From Bacillus sp. ISL-45 (GTDB taxonomy: Bacteria; Bacillota; Bacilli; Bacillales; Cytobacillaceae), in contig NZ_JAGGQQ010000008.1 in the NCBI RefSeq assembly GCF_018613195.1, positions 248,001-312,000 on the forward strand: a stretch of DNA of 64,000 bases, written 5' to 3'. Below, one piece after another: positions 8,580 through 56,803 of the stretch. The first letter of the stretch is position 1. The number at the start of each line of letters is the position of its first letter. The translations under genes and the position numbers were made by a program. The notes beneath the pieces were generated by a model that made no database searches, was not told where the DNA came from, and saw nothing but the letters and a program-made list of their open reading frames with translations.

Positions 8580-9770
8580 ATGAATCAGCCTTATATTGTT
8601 GAATCTGTTCGTACAGCTATTGGAAGAATGGGTGGCACGATCAAAGATGTGACGGTGGACCACCTTGCTGAGAAGGTGATACGAGAAGTATTGAATCGCT
8701 CCAATTCTGAAGTGACAGTCGATGAAGTTATTCTTGGCCAGGCCAAGCAAAGCGCGGATACTTCCAATCTTGCCCGTCTTGCTGCATTAAGGGCGGAACT
8801 GCCAATTGAAGTAACCGGTTATACTGTCCATCGTCAGTGCGGTTCTGGCCTTCAAGCCATTAATAATGCCGATATGCAAATCAGGCTGGGATACTCCGAT
8901 GTAGTGGTAGCTGGAGGTGCGGAAAGCATGAGCACAGCCCCCTACTATATCCGTAATGCCCGCTATGGTTTTCAAGTAGGAAATGCGCAGATTCTGGATC
9001 CGAATACGGAAAGCCAGCCTTGTTCCCAGCCAATCGAAAAATACGGCAACCTTACCATGGGACTGACTGCCGAGAATCTTGCAGAAAAATATACTATTTC
9101 CAGGACAGAACAGGATGAATTTGCGCTCCGCAGCCAGGAACTTGCACATGCAGCAATCGAATCTGGCCGTTTTGAGAAGGAAATTGTCCCGGTTGAGTAT
9201 AAGCAGAAAAGGGAAACACAATTATTCAGTGTAGACGAACATCCTCGCATCACTACAATCGAAAAACTCTCAAAGCTAAAGGCTGTTTTCAAAGGAAACG
9301 GCACTGTGACAGCTGGGAATGCAAGCGGCCGAAATGATGGAGCTTCAGTCGTATTGATGATGAATGAACATAAAGTAAATGAATATGGTTTAAAGCCAAA
9401 AGCAAAAATCATCGCCCAGGCTGTGAGCGGAGTTTCTCCAGAGATTATGGGGATTGGTCCTGTGACCTCTACATTTAAGGCCTTAAAGCAATGCGGCCTG
9501 TCCATGAATGATATTGGACTGATTGAGCTTAATGAAGCATTTGCAGCTCAGGCACTTTCAGTAATCCGTGAATCAGGAATGGACATAAACAAGGTGAATG
9601 TAAACGGCGGAGCCATTGCTTTAGGTCATCCAATTGGGGCTACAGGAGCAATCCTTATGACAAAGCTGATTCACGAGATGGAACGCAGAGGCGAAAAGTA
9701 TGGCTTGGTCACGCTTTGTATTGGCGGAGGCCAGGGAATATCGACAATCATTGAGAACCTTCAAGTCTAA
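8580..9770 (+). CDS. Acetyl-CoA C-acyltransferase (thiolase)
   Basis: The 396-residue thiolase has the nucleophilic cysteine in HRQCGSGLQA near residue 84, the GGAIALGHPIGATGA histidine motif near residue 343 and the C-terminal LCIGGGQG cysteine. It should cleave 3-ketoacyl-CoA with CoA and release acetyl-CoA, or propionyl-CoA from branched substrates, completing the beta-oxidation spiral of this operon. It starts four bases after the dehydrogenase stop, so both are clearly cotranscribed. Degradative rather than biosynthetic use is inferred from its neighbours. Confidence 0.92.
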   Translation: MNQPYIVESVRTAIGRMGGTIKDVTVDHLAEKVIREVLNRSNSEVTVDEVILGQAKQSADTSNLARLAALRAELPIEVTGYTVHRQCGSGLQAINNADMQIRLGYSDVVVAGGAESMSTAPYYIRNARYGFQVGNAQILDPNTESQPCSQPIEKYGNLTMGLTAENLAEKYTISRTEQDEFALRSQELAHAAIESGRFEKEIVPVEYKQKRETQLFSVDEHPRITTIEKLSKLKAVFKGNGTVTAGNASGRNDGASVVLMMNEHKVNEYGLKPKAKIIAQAVSGVSPEIMGIGPVTSTFKALKQCGLSMNDIGLIELNEAFAAQALSVIRESGMDINKVNVNGGAIALGHPIGATGAILMTKLIHEMERRGEKYGLVTLCIGGGQGISTIIENLQV

Positions 9771-9798
9771 CTGGTTTTGCCAAAAAGGAAGTGTTGAG

Positions 9799-10809
9799 AT
9801 GAGGAAGCCTCATATTGTTCAAATTCTCCCCATGTATCATCCAGATGGGGAGGATATCCTGAACAAACGTGCTGAAGTGAAGAAGTTTACTGAATTTAAA
9901 GAGACGGAAATATGTGATTATCTCCTGAATAATAAGGTTGATGGAATAATCCTTAGGGCCCCAGCAAGGATCACGTCAGCTATTTTAGACAACTGCCATC
10001 AAGTAAAGGCTATTTCAGGAGCAGGAGTGGGACTTGATAATATCGATGTAGGTTATGCAACTGAAAAAGGGATTCCTGTATTGCATGCCCCAAAGCTCAA
10101 TAGTACGGCAACCGCAGAACATGCAGTGAGTCTTCTGTTAGCAGTGATGAAAAAAACTGCCTACTTTGATAGGGAAACAAGAAGCGGAAACTTTCAATCA
10201 AGGGATGGAGCCTACACTCATGAACTGCAAGGTAAGCAGCTGGGGCTCGTTGGCTTTGGAAGTATCGCACAGAAAGTCGCCAGGATTTTAGTCCATGGTT
10301 TTGGCATGAGGGCACTGGCTTATGTCAGAAATATAAATGAAGAAAAACAGCAAACAGCCGAACGAATAGGGGTAGAGTTAACCACTTCTATGGATAAGAT
10401 TTTTTCTGAAAGTGATGCAGTGAGCTTACATATTCCATTAACTAAAGAAACAGATCAGCTTGTTGACAATAAATTGCTGTCGCTTATGAAAAACAACGCA
10501 GTGCTCATTAACACTGCCCGTGGCGGTGTTATCAATGAACAGCATTTAGTCCAGGCACTGAGGCAAAATCAATTACTAGGTGCAGGGATAGATGTATTTT
10601 CTGATGAACCACCCCCTGCTGATCATCCATTTTTTCAACTAGAGCAAGTAACGATGAGCCCGCATATTGGAGGAATCAGTCTTGAGGCAGCGAGGCAGAC
10701 ATCAACCCTAATTGCAGAGAATCTTCTGCGAGTTATAAATGGCGAAAAGCTGTCGGTCATTGCCAATCAAGCTGAACTTGCAGAAACAGGAAAGGGGGCT
10801 TTTTCATGA
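9799..10809 (+). CDS. D-isomer-specific 2-hydroxyacid dehydrogenase
   Basis: This 336-residue protein has the NAD-binding motif VGFGSIAQKVA near residue 151, the catalytic arginine segment NTARGGVIN and the histidine segment SPHIGGISLEA. It would interconvert a 2-hydroxyacid and a 2-ketoacid and resembles phosphoglycerate or hydroxypyruvate dehydrogenases. ATG 9799 follows AAGGAAG; the longer reading frame starts inside the thiolase gene and is rejected. Its stop overlaps the next start by four bases. A 2-hydroxyacid step is not part of plain beta-oxidation, so the substrate may carry an alpha-hydroxy or alpha-keto group. Confidence 0.85.
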   Translation: MRKPHIVQILPMYHPDGEDILNKRAEVKKFTEFKETEICDYLLNNKVDGIILRAPARITSAILDNCHQVKAISGAGVGLDNIDVGYATEKGIPVLHAPKLNSTATAEHAVSLLLAVMKKTAYFDRETRSGNFQSRDGAYTHELQGKQLGLVGFGSIAQKVARILVHGFGMRALAYVRNINEEKQQTAERIGVELTTSMDKIFSESDAVSLHIPLTKETDQLVDNKLLSLMKNNAVLINTARGGVINEQHLVQALRQNQLLGAGIDVFSDEPPPADHPFFQLEQVTMSPHIGGISLEAARQTSTLIAENLLRVINGEKLSVIANQAELAETGKGAFS

Positions 10810-11219
10810 AAGTAGAAAAATTACAGAAAGTAAGAGCAGAATTTGAAAATAGCCCATTTTGGAATTTTATTGGATTGCAATTAAAAGAATTAAAAGAAGG
10901 ATATGTTTTATTGGCACTTCCAATCAAACAGGATTTCATTAATGTAAGAAATACAGTCCATGGTGGCATTTATGCGTCCGTATTGGATACAGCAATGGGG
11001 ATGGCGGGCAAGTCATTGGGATATGATGGGGCAGCCACACTGAATTTAAACATCCAATTTCTGAAGTCTGTTATTGATGGAGTGGTTTATTCAGAGGCAG
11101 AGATCATCCATCAGAACCGGAATACCGTATTCGTTGAGGGCAGGCTTAAAAATGCCGACGGTGAACTGCTTGGCCATTGCACAGGAACTTTTAAGGTCAC
11201 TAAGGGTGATGGCTCATGA
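10806..11219 (+). CDS. PaaI-type hotdog-fold thioesterase
   Basis: The 137-residue protein has the hotdog-fold core NTVHGGIYASVLDTAMG, a typical PaaI/YdiI catalytic pattern with HGG and an acidic residue on the central helix. It probably hydrolyses acyl-CoA esters and may release CoA from dead-end intermediates. It is coupled by ATGA overlaps both to the gene before it (10806) and to the gene after it (11216). Substrate is unknown. Confidence 0.85.
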   Translation: MKVEKLQKVRAEFENSPFWNFIGLQLKELKEGYVLLALPIKQDFINVRNTVHGGIYASVLDTAMGMAGKSLGYDGAATLNLNIQFLKSVIDGVVYSEAEIIHQNRNTVFVEGRLKNADGELLGHCTGTFKVTKGDGS

Positions 11220-15704: not shown

Positions 15705-17756
15705 TTAAACTGGCTTCTGTACTTGCTCAATCTTCACCGCACACGCCTTAAACTCAGCGGTTCCAGCTAAAGGGTCAGTTGCGGAATTGGTTAATACATT
15801 GGTGCTTGCCTGGTCGGGGAAGTGGAAGGACATGAAGACTAAGCCCTTTGGCTGTTTTTTGCTGATGTTGACTTTGGTAATGAGGCTTCCTCTTCTTGAG
15901 CTTACTCTTACTTGATCTCCGTCTTGTAATCCATATTTCGCTGCATCCTCGGCATGGATCTCTAAAGCTTCTTCTGCATTTTTCATTTTCTTATAATCTC
16001 TTGTTTGCACGCCTGTATTATAAAATTGTAGCCTGCGGCCGGTTGTCAGCATCAAAGGAAACTCTTCATCCGGCTCCTCGGCAGGAGGCTGGTAATGGGT
16101 TGGCACGAATTTCGCCTTCATTCCCACCTCTTCTGACCAGAGACGGCTATGGAGAAATGGAGTCCCTGGATGATTTTCATCAGGACATGGCCATTGAAGG
16201 CCGCCATCTTTGTCAATCCGTTCGTACGTTACACCGGCAAAATTAGGTGCAAGCTTGCGGATCTCCTCCCAAACTTCCTCCGCTGATTGATAAGTCCATT
16301 TTTCTCCCATTTTATTGGCGATATCCTGAACGATTTCCTGGTCATGCCTGGACACACCTGGTCCTTTTAGAGCGGGCCGGACGCGTTGAATCCTGCGCTC
16401 AGAATTAACCAGTGTCCCGTCGTTTTCAGCCCAGCCCGTTGCCGGAAGGACGACATCCGCAAGTATCGCTGTTCTTGTCATTAAAATGTCCTGGACAACG
16501 AGGAAATCGAGGTCTTTAAAAATCTTTTCCACCTGATTCCCATTGGCATCCGATTGAACCGGATTTTCGCCAAATACATAGACTGCCTTGATTTCTTTTT
16601 TCTCCATTGCCTCGAGCATCAAGGTTTGATGCTTTCCGATTTTTTCAGGAACCGGGGTGCCCCATACTTGTTCATGCAGTTTTCTTCCTTCAGGATCATC
16701 ATAATTCCAGCCGCCGACAAGCCTGTTCGGCAGGGCGCCCATGTCTCCGCCGCCCTGGACATTGTTTTGGCCCCTCAGCGGATTCAGTCCAGAGCCATAC
16801 TTCCCGATATGACCGGTCAATAAGGCTAAATTAATCAAAGCAAATACATTTTCGGTGCCATTATGATGTTCTGTAATCCCCAGCGTCCAGCAAATCGTTG
16901 CTTTATCCGCATTCGCATAAAGCAGGGCGATTTCCCGGATATCTTCCGCTGGGATACCGGTGACCTTTTCCGCGAATTCAGGGGTGTATTTTTTGACCTC
17001 TTCCTTATACTTATCAAACTGTTCTGTCGCCTTTTCAATAAACCCCTTATGAACTAAGTCCTCTTCAATGATGACATGGCCCATCGCATTTGCCAGGGCA
17101 ATATCGGTTCCGACCCTGACTGGCAGCCACTTGTAGGCCAGTTTCGTCTGGTCAATCTGACGGGGGTCAATGACGACCATTTTTGTCCCATTTTTTATCC
17201 CGCGTCGCATATGGTTAAAAATAATCGGGTGGCATTCCTGGGTATTGCTTCCCCAGACCAGAATGACATCGGTGTCCTCAAGTTCGTCATAAGAACCCGT
17301 GGCAGCACCTGTACCAAACACAGTCACCAGACCGGTGACGCTTGGAGCGTGTCAGGTTCGGTTGCAGCTGTCAATATTATTGGTGCCGATGACCGTCCGC
17401 ATGAATTTTCCAGCGAGATAATTTAATTCATTGGTTGATCTCGAAGAGCTGAAACAGCCAAAGGCATCTGGCCCATGTTTTTCTTTGATGTCAGAAAAAT
17501 TATCCGCAATGAGGGTCAGTGCTTCTTCCCAGCTGGCGGGTGTCAACTCTCCATTTTTTCTGATCAGCGGCTGGGTCAGCCGTCGGTCGCTATGGAGATA
17601 TCCCCAACCCATTGCACCTTTTACACAGGTTTCCCCATGGCTCGAAGGGTTTTCCTTGTATCCTTTTACTTTGCTAATCTTGTTATCTTCTGTTTCGACG
17701 ACAAGACCGCATCCTGTACCGCAAAAACCGCATATCGTTTCCACTTGATCCTGCAT
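15705..17756 (-). CDS. fdhF: Selenocysteine-containing formate dehydrogenase alpha subunit (UGA recoded)
   Basis: Read through one in-frame TGA (17352-17354), this is a 683-residue molybdopterin oxidoreductase, close in size to E. coli FdhF. Residues 9-16 carry the 4Fe-4S motif CGFCGTGC, with the fourth cysteine in GETCVKG. The TGA falls at residue 135 in NNIDSCNRT-U-HAPSVTGL, where FdhF enzymes have selenocysteine or cysteine before H-x-P-S. The frame is the same on both sides and the downstream part has all expected domains. ATG 17756 follows TAAGGAGGTA, which overlaps the fdhD stop. It would oxidise formate to CO2 using a Mo/W-bis-MGD cofactor. No electron-transfer subunit is encoded nearby. 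A plain nonsense mutation is the alternative, but the SECIS-like hairpin argues against it. Confidence 0.88.
17322..17351 (-). promoter_or_regulatory. Bacterial SECIS-like hairpin after the UGA codon
   Basis: Immediately after TGA the coding strand has 18 bases and then a loop GGTCT closed by the perfect six-base stem GTCACC/GGTGAC (17339-17323). The E. coli fdhF SECIS, as I recall it, also has a GGUCU apical loop 18 bases after UGA. Such a hairpin recruits SelB for selenocysteine insertion. Confidence 0.8.
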
Positions 17757-17773
17757 GCCGTTTTTATACCTCC

Positions 17774-18574
17774 TTAATCTATTACTTCCACAATCCGATC
17801 TGGCCTCGTATAAACATTCAAAGCATTGTTCCGAATAAAGCCAACCGTCGTCATTCCCAGCTCTTCTGCAAGCTCCAGTGCCATTTCTGTCGGTGCGGAT
17901 TTTGATAACACCACTTCACAGCCGATTTTTGCGACTTTTGTGACGATCTCAGAGGAGATCCGTCCGCTAAACACGATGATTTTATCTTCCAAAGAAACTT
18001 GATGCCGCAGACAGTGGCCATATATTTTATCCAGGGCGTTATGGCGTCCAATATCCAGGCGGGACAGCAGGACACCGTCTCTTGTACATAGTGCTGCATT
18101 GTGGACCCCGCCTGTTTCCTGGAAAACTGCTGAACGACTTTGCATCTCTTCCATTAATCGAAAACAATCTTGATAGGTTAATCGGACATTCACCTGCTTA
18201 AAATGGTGGGATAATCTCGCATCGTTAAAAAAGACGAATCCCTGCCTGCTTTTGCCGCAGCAAGAGGTGATATAACGTTTTGAGTGAAATTTTTCATAAA
18301 AGGAATTGGTATAGTGTGTTTTCACATGAACAAATCCTTCTTTTTCCTGGATCCATAAATCATCAATATCGGCGAATTTTCTGATTACACCTTCTGAAGC
18401 TAAAAACCCGATGACCATATCCTCAATGTATTCCGCTGTACAGACTAAAGTAGCAAACTCTTTTTCATTCAATTTGATCGTAAACGGTTTTTCAGTCGCA
18501 ATAGTGTCTTCAACTTTTTCGGTGATCCCATGTACATAACGGGTAATGGTTCGTTTTGTACTTGTCTTCGTCAC
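17774..18574 (-). CDS. fdhD: Formate dehydrogenase accessory sulfurtransferase FdhD
   Basis: The 266-residue protein is FdhD, which transfers sulfur from IscS-type desulfurases to the molybdenum cofactor of formate dehydrogenase. It contains TSCCGKSR near residue 109, carrying the functional cysteine pair, then GGVHNAALC and the DIGRHNALDK motif. The likely start is GTG 18574, seven bases after GGGGGAGGAA; the longer frame from ATG 18616 has no ribosome binding site. It is sandwiched between the formate transporter and the formate dehydrogenase gene, whose ribosome binding site overlaps its stop codon, so it matures that enzyme. Confidence 0.93.
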   Translation of the reverse strand: MTKTSTKRTITRYVHGITEKVEDTIATEKPFTIKLNEKEFATLVCTAEYIEDMVIGFLASEGVIRKFADIDDLWIQEKEGFVHVKTHYTNSFYEKFHSKRYITSCCGKSRQGFVFFNDARLSHHFKQVNVRLTYQDCFRLMEEMQSRSAVFQETGGVHNAALCTRDGVLLSRLDIGRHNALDKIYGHCLRHQVSLEDKIIVFSGRISSEIVTKVAKIGCEVVLSKSAPTEMALELAEELGMTTVGFIRNNALNVYTRPDRIVEVID

Positions 18575-18622
18575 GATATTTTGTTCCTCCCCCGTACGCA
18601 AACAAAATAGGGACATTTAAAT

Positions 18623-19883
18623 CTAGGCGGTTATTTCTGATTCATTTTGTTTACGAAGCTTAGCCATATCCACTCTGATCAGCAGAGAAATAACGAATGC
18701 TGCGACAAATAACCCTGCAAACACTGATAAGCTGCCGGCATACGATCCGGTTGTATCTTTTATATAGGCGGCAAACATTGGTCCCACCAGACCGGCCGCT
18801 GCCCATGCTGTCAGGATGTAGCCATGGATGGCGCCGAGCTGTTTTGTGCCGAATAAATCGCCGATATAGGCAGGTATGGAGGCAAATCCCCCTCCGTAGC
18901 ACGTATAAATGACCGCAAGCATTACCTGGAAAAGCAGGGCATTGGTCGTGTGCGGAAGTATGAAAAACAATCCGATTTGCAGGATGAAGAATGTTGTATA
19001 CGTATTCGGACGGCCAATGAAATCTGAAATGGAGGCCCAGCCAATCCGGCCCAGCCCATTGAAGATCCCAATTGCTCCAACAAGCGCAGCAGCTGCCGCT
19101 GTCCCAATGCCGATCGACTCCATCGCAAGCGGTTTCGCCACTGCTAAAATCGCAATCCCGCATGTGACATTGATGAACAGCATCAGCCATAAATACCAGA
19201 AACGGGTCGTTTTTACCGCTTCGTTCGCCGTTAGCTGTGAAAGGTCCATTACTGGCTTTGCGGCACCAGATTCAACTTTTTCCTTAAAGCCCTCCGGCAT
19301 CCATCCTTCAGGCGGCTTTTCCAGATACAAAGACGATGCGGTCATTAAAATTAAGTAAGCGCTTCCTAAAATGAAGAACGTGTTCGCGACTCCTACACTT
19401 TCAATCAAACTATTCATGATTGGGCTGGAAATGGCTGCGGCAAAGCCAAAGCCCATAATCGCAAGGCCCGTAGCAAGCCCGCGCCGGTCTGGGAACCATT
19501 TTACCAACGTAGAAACCGGTGCAATATAGCCAACACCAAGACCAATCCCGCCTAACACCCCGTAAAACAGATAAAGGAGTATTTTTGAGCCCAATAGAAC
19601 GGCAAGACCGGAACCGGCAATCCCGATTCCAAAGAAAGTCGCCGCAAGCAATCCAGCCTTCCTAGGACCATGCTTTTCCACAAAATGACCCAAAAACGCA
19701 GCAGCAAGACCAAGGAACAAGATAGCGATACTAAAGGTAAGAGCCACTTCCGAATCGGACCAGCCAAACAAATTTTTCAACGGGTTCGTGAAATTACTCC
19801 AAGCATAAACAGAACCAATCGAGATATGAATCCCAACAGCGGCGGCAGCAATCAACCAACGATTTTTTCTTTGTTTCAGCCAT
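18623..19883 (-). CDS. OFA-family oxalate/formate antiporter-like MFS transporter with N-terminal frameshift
   Basis: About 410 residues of a 12-helix MFS transporter of the oxalate:formate antiporter family (VGIHISIGSVYAWSNF at the start, GHFVEKHGPRKAG loop). It probably moves formate for the adjacent dehydrogenase. The natural start is ATG 19883 after AGGAGG (19895-19900), giving MAETKKK, but an A6 run (T6 at 19863-19868) puts this one base out of frame with the body; removing one A restores KKNRWLIAAAAVG. Otherwise initiation must use TTG 19855 or CTG near 19879, both poorly spaced. Sequencing error, mutation or slippage on A6 are all possible. Confidence 0.85.
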
Positions 19884-56613: not shown

Positions 56614-56803
56614 CAAATGATCTCCTTTATCTATTTTGATGGCAGCTGGCAGGCTTTGTCTGTGACAGAGGCCCCTATAGCTTTGCGTCATTACTTTTCA
56701 GTAATTTTGCTCTTTTTTATTATATAAATTTTTTGAATAATAGTACTATAGGTAATAGATACCCTTTTATTTACAGAAAATGGCACCCTTTTAGCTTTGT
56801 GTG

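Follow-up and report, generated by a model that had tools for sequence, protein, structure and literature searches.

Does a TGA codon inside a formate dehydrogenase frame end translation, or is it read as selenocysteine (Sec)? The question is raised by a frame on the reverse strand of a 64,000-nucleotide stretch of DNA from Bacillus sp. ISL-45 (contig NZ_JAGGQQ010000008.1, positions 248,001 to 312,000), called here the window and numbered from its first letter. The internal stop is very probably read as selenocysteine to yield a formate-oxidizing enzyme: we put at about 0.96 the probability that this fdhF is a working selenoprotein gene whose UGA is decoded as Sec by way of a hairpin.

A predicted formate dehydrogenase with an internal TGA codon

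15705..17756, reverse strand: gene for a predicted fdhF-like selenoprotein formate dehydrogenase, 683 aa (frame, TIGR01591 and Pfam)
17352..17354, reverse strand: TGA codon, predicted selenocysteine residue 135 (TGA in 97 of 97 motif-bearing loci)
17769..17775, reverse strand: AAGGAGG upstream from fdhF, resembling a ribosome-binding site (sequence)

The 683-residue frame opens with ATG, 12 nt from the 3′ end of the AAGGAGG element, and closes with TAA. Its single in-frame stop falls at residue 135, within the motif CNRT-U-HAPS, and the frame is intact on both sides, as the original prediction had it. The product scores 797.2 bits against the formate dehydrogenase alpha/FdhA model TIGR01591 (cut-off, 666.25) and comprises a 4Fe-4S domain (residues 5-55) followed by molybdopterin domains (59-481 and 568-673; Pfam PF04879, PF00384, PF01568). 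In an alignment with E. coli FdhF (gene taken from NC_000913), 266 of 679 positions are identical and residue 135 aligns with Sec140. The Sec, the His next to it, an Arg, a Lys and the four Fe-S cysteines of the E. coli enzyme are all matched, with Sec135, His136, Arg328 and Lys46 corresponding to E. coli residues 140, 141, 333 and 44; we take the Lys, the Sec/His pair and the Arg to be the catalytic residues of FdhF. Also as anticipated, the gene comes out split in a bacterial-code ORF listing, as pieces of 134 and 540 aa. Since plain listings split genes of this kind, formate metabolism and selenium demand in Bacillaceae may be underestimated.

A hairpin conserved downstream from the TGA codon

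17323..17339, reverse strand: apical hairpin of bSECIS type, GTCACC-GGTCT-GGTGAC (438 of 438 pair cells, 73 distinct sequences)
17329..17333, reverse strand: loop of the hairpin, GGTCT, 18 nt past the TGA (GGTCT in 71 of 73 distinct sequences)

The GGTCT loop and its 18-nt spacing had been likened to those of E. coli fdhF, and inspection of the E. coli K-12 gene (NC_000913) bore this out. Published limits for bSECIS elements are a loop of 3-9 nt, a stem of 4-16 bp, a spacing of 16-37 nt, a G within the first two loop bases and an energy of at most -7.5 (PMC13188914). The window hairpin lies within all of them (loop 5, stem 6, GG, 18 nt, -9.4 kcal/mol). Folding of the single sequence was weak (z of -1.46, -1.97 and -0.50 for 40, 49 and 61 nt), the stability of the window hairpin alone being not clearly better than that of shuffles, and an Rfam search of positions 17200-17500 at E up to 10 returned no SECIS, its sole match being a chance microRNA on the opposite strand.

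Because the single-sequence fold is weak, the hairpin was compared across related loci. We opened 101 such loci, 97 of which carry the active-site motif; as some genomes were represented twice, from two collections, the material was reduced to 73 distinct 48-mers. All six stem pairs are standard in each of the 73, while a control in which the 3′ partners were shifted by 1 or 2 bases gave only 54-172 paired cells out of 438. This comparison is decisive in placing the hairpin above chance. The two sequences departing from the GGTCT loop carry AGTTT. Both-sided changes occur at four of the six pairs, or at two when the Sulfobacillus sequence L145 is left out; these counts refer to sequences and not to evolutionary events, and the change of one pair from A-T to G-C, which largely splits two clades, may represent a single event. 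Among 669 codons compared in 16 orthologues of the window type, GTC ACC GGT CTG GTG is the only run in which at least three successive codons are invariant, and synonymous change elsewhere in these genes is high (dS from 0.34 to saturation).

The last codon of this run, an in-frame GTG in the 3′ arm of the hairpin (17325-17327), could in principle serve as the start of a separate 540-aa product made alongside the full-length protein. Being one of the hairpin's five invariant codons, however, this GTG owes its conservation to a cause other than restart, and the product would have neither the Fe-S domain nor the Sec residue. We regard such a second product as very improbable.

A bulged U in the upper stem is needed in SECIS elements of the E. 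coli type. It is absent from the window hairpin, whose stem is an unbroken 6 bp, so that we infer binding by the local SelB from conservation. The pairing may also constrain the protein. Thr at the sixth position after Sec is always accompanied by Val at the ninth (17 of 73 distinct sequences, A-T pair), and Ala or Val at the sixth by Ala or Thr at the ninth (56 of 73, G-C pair); the two residues would be linked through the pairing of their codons in the SECIS stem, a relationship that may rest on few evolutionary events. We would give about even odds to a broader reading of these sequences, in which the SECIS shapes protein as well as RNA and the family of Mesobacillus, Neobacillus and Robertmurraya is a broadly selenium-using lineage with a SECIS of the E. 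coli kind minus the bulge. If true, this spore-former lineage would be represented here by a genome with three Sec formate dehydrogenases. The family supplies many natural SECIS variants that preserve pairing, a useful resource for defining the requirements of SelB in Gram-positive bacteria.

Distribution of the TGA codon among relatives

A nonsense mutation or a sequencing error would leave a real stop and a broken gene, and the 134-aa and 540-aa pieces of the ORF listing are what such a gene would show. Against this, all 97 motif-bearing loci have TGA at this codon (50 of 50 in one set, 47 of 51 in another), including loci from Acidimicrobiia and a Sulfobacillus MAG; the four loci without the motif are three distant matches (29-32% identity) and one match of 54 residues. 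Purifying selection past the TGA equals that ahead of it, dN/dS being at most 0.073 on both sides wherever computable among 15 orthologues in the window's family, with several dS values saturated; downstream values of 0.18-0.72 for L140-L142 were set aside as products of a comparison without gaps, in which indels had probably shifted the alignment. With the pairing of the hairpin conserved as well, the chance that the gene is broken seems negligible.

Protein matches at E up to 1e-150 were found in 148 of 193 genomes of the window's family. A TGA-containing homologue with at least 49% identity is present in 129 of the 193 (139 rows) among the matches listed, a count that records a TGA in the match, its place having been read in the loci opened. 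Some of these 139 rows contain an additional stop, TAA or TAG, and two (G155, G158) contain two TGA codons; in four rows with an extra stop (L022, L023, L025, L046) the frame ends there, 544-548 codons past the Sec codon. The window type (at least 74% identity) occurs in 16 family genomes, 10 of which also have a second type, among the matches listed. Its loci come from Bacillus, Mesobacillus, Neobacillus and Robertmurraya, plus one filed under Chryseobacterium, probably mislabelled. In 19 of the 148 matching genomes the best match is of a 39%-identity type, with TGA in 0 of 10 among the matches listed. Over the whole order the TGA type is sparser than in the family: at E up to 1e-190 there are matches in 33 of 397 genomes, including 11 from the window's family, and TGA is present in 35 of 35 order-wide rows among the matches listed. 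The original prediction had held that most Bacillaceae formate dehydrogenases use cysteine. A Cys type does exist, but the 129 genomes just described go against the Sec type being unusual here, and predicted Sec formate dehydrogenases are common, not rare, in the window's family.

In a maximum-likelihood tree of 60 proteins, the window type and the Evansella and Salipaludibacillus copies form one clade (100/100), adjoining the Sec formate dehydrogenases of Acidimicrobiia and Sulfobacillus (96/93); the second FdhF-like type forms a separate clade spanning Bacillales families. Because long branches were flagged (including L145 and two outgroups), the root and the Sulfobacillus placement are unsure.

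Selenocysteine machinery

The original prediction had staked itself on the presence of selA, selB, selC and selD, and all four were found. The genome has selA and selB (both on contig C25), selD and a tRNA-Sec gene (C19, anticodon tca), each above its family cut-off; selD adjoins selA (TIGR00476, 401.1 bits against 125), carries an in-frame TGA and also ends with TGA. Although an open frame alone is silent on the residue inserted, selenium-free readthrough of UGA, as tryptophan or through a general code change, has next to no probability, given that TGA terminates the neighbouring frames 9700-10809 and 10806-11219 as well as selD, that the fdhF TGA stands at the E. coli Sec position, and that selA, selB, selD and tRNA-Sec are all present.

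Within the family, tRNA-Sec was detected in 172 of 193 genomes: 128 of the 129 with a TGA-containing formate dehydrogenase and 44 of the 64 others, TGA status being that among the matches listed. The one exception (G161) is an assembly 85% complete, in 570 contigs. Conversely, 44 of the 172 genomes with tRNA-Sec have no TGA-containing formate dehydrogenase among the matches listed (for example G009, G010 and G033-G037). In these genomes SelD, a SelW-like protein or an FdnG-type enzyme may be what retains the Sec machinery. A regular-expression search of 31 selA loci found a TGA-containing SelD in 18 and a SelW-like frame with TGA in 5, the remainder showing no match to the motif in their 1.5-kb flanks. 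One SelW-like hit (L056) was discarded as spurious, its stop being TAG.

Behind the tRNA-Sec gene of the Bacillus sp. ISL-45 genome comes a gene for a phage-type integrase (PF00589; G000:C19, L175 3261-4680). Two relatives have two complete tRNA-Sec genes 16-19 kb apart (L178 1067-17515, L179 289-19336), and in L178 an integrase gene lies beside each copy. It seems that selC is a site used by mobile elements and that these carry in a complete copy of the gene. No second tRNA-Sec 3′ end was found in the pieces of contig C19 up to the contig end.

The case for Sec insertion is as good as sequence alone allows, and we infer actual incorporation of selenocysteine at residue 135. In the proposed pathway, SelA and SelD would produce Sec-tRNA(Sec) on the genome's tRNA-Sec, and SelB would bind the hairpin just past the UGA and deliver Sec. 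The product would be the 683-residue molybdopterin formate dehydrogenase and not the 134-residue fragment alone. Sec135, together with His136, Arg328 and Lys46, would serve in ligation of Mo or W and in conversion of formate, the predicted substrate, to CO2, one 4Fe-4S cluster passing the electrons onward.

Genes adjacent to fdhF

17774..18616, reverse strand: fdhD, sulfurtransferase for formate dehydrogenase, immediately upstream from fdhF and in the same direction (TIGR00129, 221.9 against 140.9 bits)
18623..19855, reverse strand: MFS transporter, leading the three-gene cluster (L-lactate MFS model NF049980 fits best)

Of the two flanking genes originally proposed, fdhD and a formate transporter, the former was borne out by TIGR00129; FdhD would supply the sulfido ligand of the enzyme. 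The latter is an OFA-like MFS protein that exceeds the cut-off of the L-lactate transporter model NF049980 (448.3 bits against 320) and falls below the oxalate/formate antiporter cut-offs (TIGR00890, 206.8 against 374.85; TIGR04259, 169.1 against 335). Since the best fit is to the L-lactate model, transport of formate is conjectural; the probable cargo of the carrier is formate or another monocarboxylate. Of 16 window-type loci, 12 preserve the gene order MFS-fdhD-fdhF, which ties the MFS carrier to the formate dehydrogenase. One locus (L139, a 5.5-kb contig) has fdhD downstream from fdhF, and in the Evansella, Salipaludibacillus and Bacillaceae MAG loci neither fdhD nor the MFS gene was found next to fdhF. 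No electron-acceptor or partner subunit was recognized in the three-gene cluster. Elsewhere in the window lies a c-di-GMP-I riboswitch (56638-56721, reverse strand; 64.2 against 35 bits).

Other formate dehydrogenases and predicted selenoproteins of the genome

At least five selenoproteins are predicted in this genome: the window enzyme, a second FdhF-like formate dehydrogenase, a third of FdnG type, SelD and a SelW-like protein. The second FdhF-like gene (G000:C3:273515-275560) has TGA at the motif and scores above the TIGR01591 cut-off (774.6 bits). Found in Bacillales, this type resembles the window enzyme in sequence (52% identity), in its TGA and in having the same hairpin with paired base changes; it differs in belonging to another clade and in its 9-kb locus, where no fdhD or MFS match was found. 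The FdnG-type gene (G000:C17:97753-105000; L166, L173), also with TGA at the motif (TIGR01553, 1305.1 against 814.2 bits), encodes a TAT signal and is accompanied by genes for Fe-S and cytochrome b subunits, FdhD, MobA-like and MoeA proteins and by a weak FdhE match. By eye, its hairpin, GGTTGCC-GGTCT-GGCACC, seems to contain the bulged U missing from the window hairpin. The SelW-like TGA frame lies between selA and selD (Rdx, PF10262, 75.4 against 22.6 bits). The genome also has a Cys-type formate dehydrogenase (YrhE/YjgC-like; G000:C3:291326-293353, codon TGC), presumably YrhE by name; TGC or TGT stands in all five loci of this type that were opened.

Comparison with known systems

Among bacterial selenoproteins, FdhA is described as the most widespread (PMC5029168, PMC13188914), and Zhang et al. 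tabulated three selenoproteins in three families for Firmicutes/Bacillales in 2006 (PMC1794560). In a literature search that left most subscription journals outside, we found no paper pairing selenocysteine with Neobacillus or Mesobacillus; absence from print is not claimed.

In nine loci from actinobacteria, mostly Acidimicrobiia, and in one from a Sulfobacillus MAG (L144-L147, L149, L153, L155-L158; for example L146, 4001-5884 and 7592-8533), the frame of the Sec formate dehydrogenase is missing most or all of the N-terminal 4Fe-4S domain. In 10 of 10, a 4Fe-4S domain match lies about 2.5 kb downstream; in L146 it is PF04879 at residues 258-309, the C-terminus of a NuoG-like Fe-S protein. 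This arrangement is a split of the usual FdhA. Actinomycetospora chiangmaiensis, according to the account in PMC7176365, has a cytoplasmic Sec enzyme, FDH3, and removes formate in a selenium-dependent manner; the subunit sizes given there (640/614/316 aa) point to a catalytic subunit that lacks the N-terminal Fe-S domain, and by size alone they resemble the Acidimicrobiales locus L146.

The FdhF of the hydrogen-dependent CO2 reductase forms part of a complex with a hydrogenase. This FdhF-type protein (PDB 7qv7) is, by sequence, the best solved relative of the window enzyme (E 2.4e-194); in contrast, no hydrogenase was recognized beside the window gene. The YrhE/YjgC-type enzyme of Bacillaceae (PDB 8rqz) belongs to the same superfamily but differs in its 36% identity, its open frame of 998 residues and its Cys codon, TGC.

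Compared with E. coli FdhF (formate dehydrogenase H, 715 aa, PDB 1aa6), the window enzyme has 39% identity, an uninterrupted hairpin stem of 6 bp around a loop of 5 nt, in contrast to the bulged U in the E. coli fold, and no recognized hydrogenase gene in its cluster. The two share the aligned UGA, the GGTCT loop 18 nt past it, a single 4Fe-4S domain and the lack of a fused diaphorase. The enzyme belongs to a known kind, Sec formate dehydrogenases decoded by way of a bSECIS being already well known.
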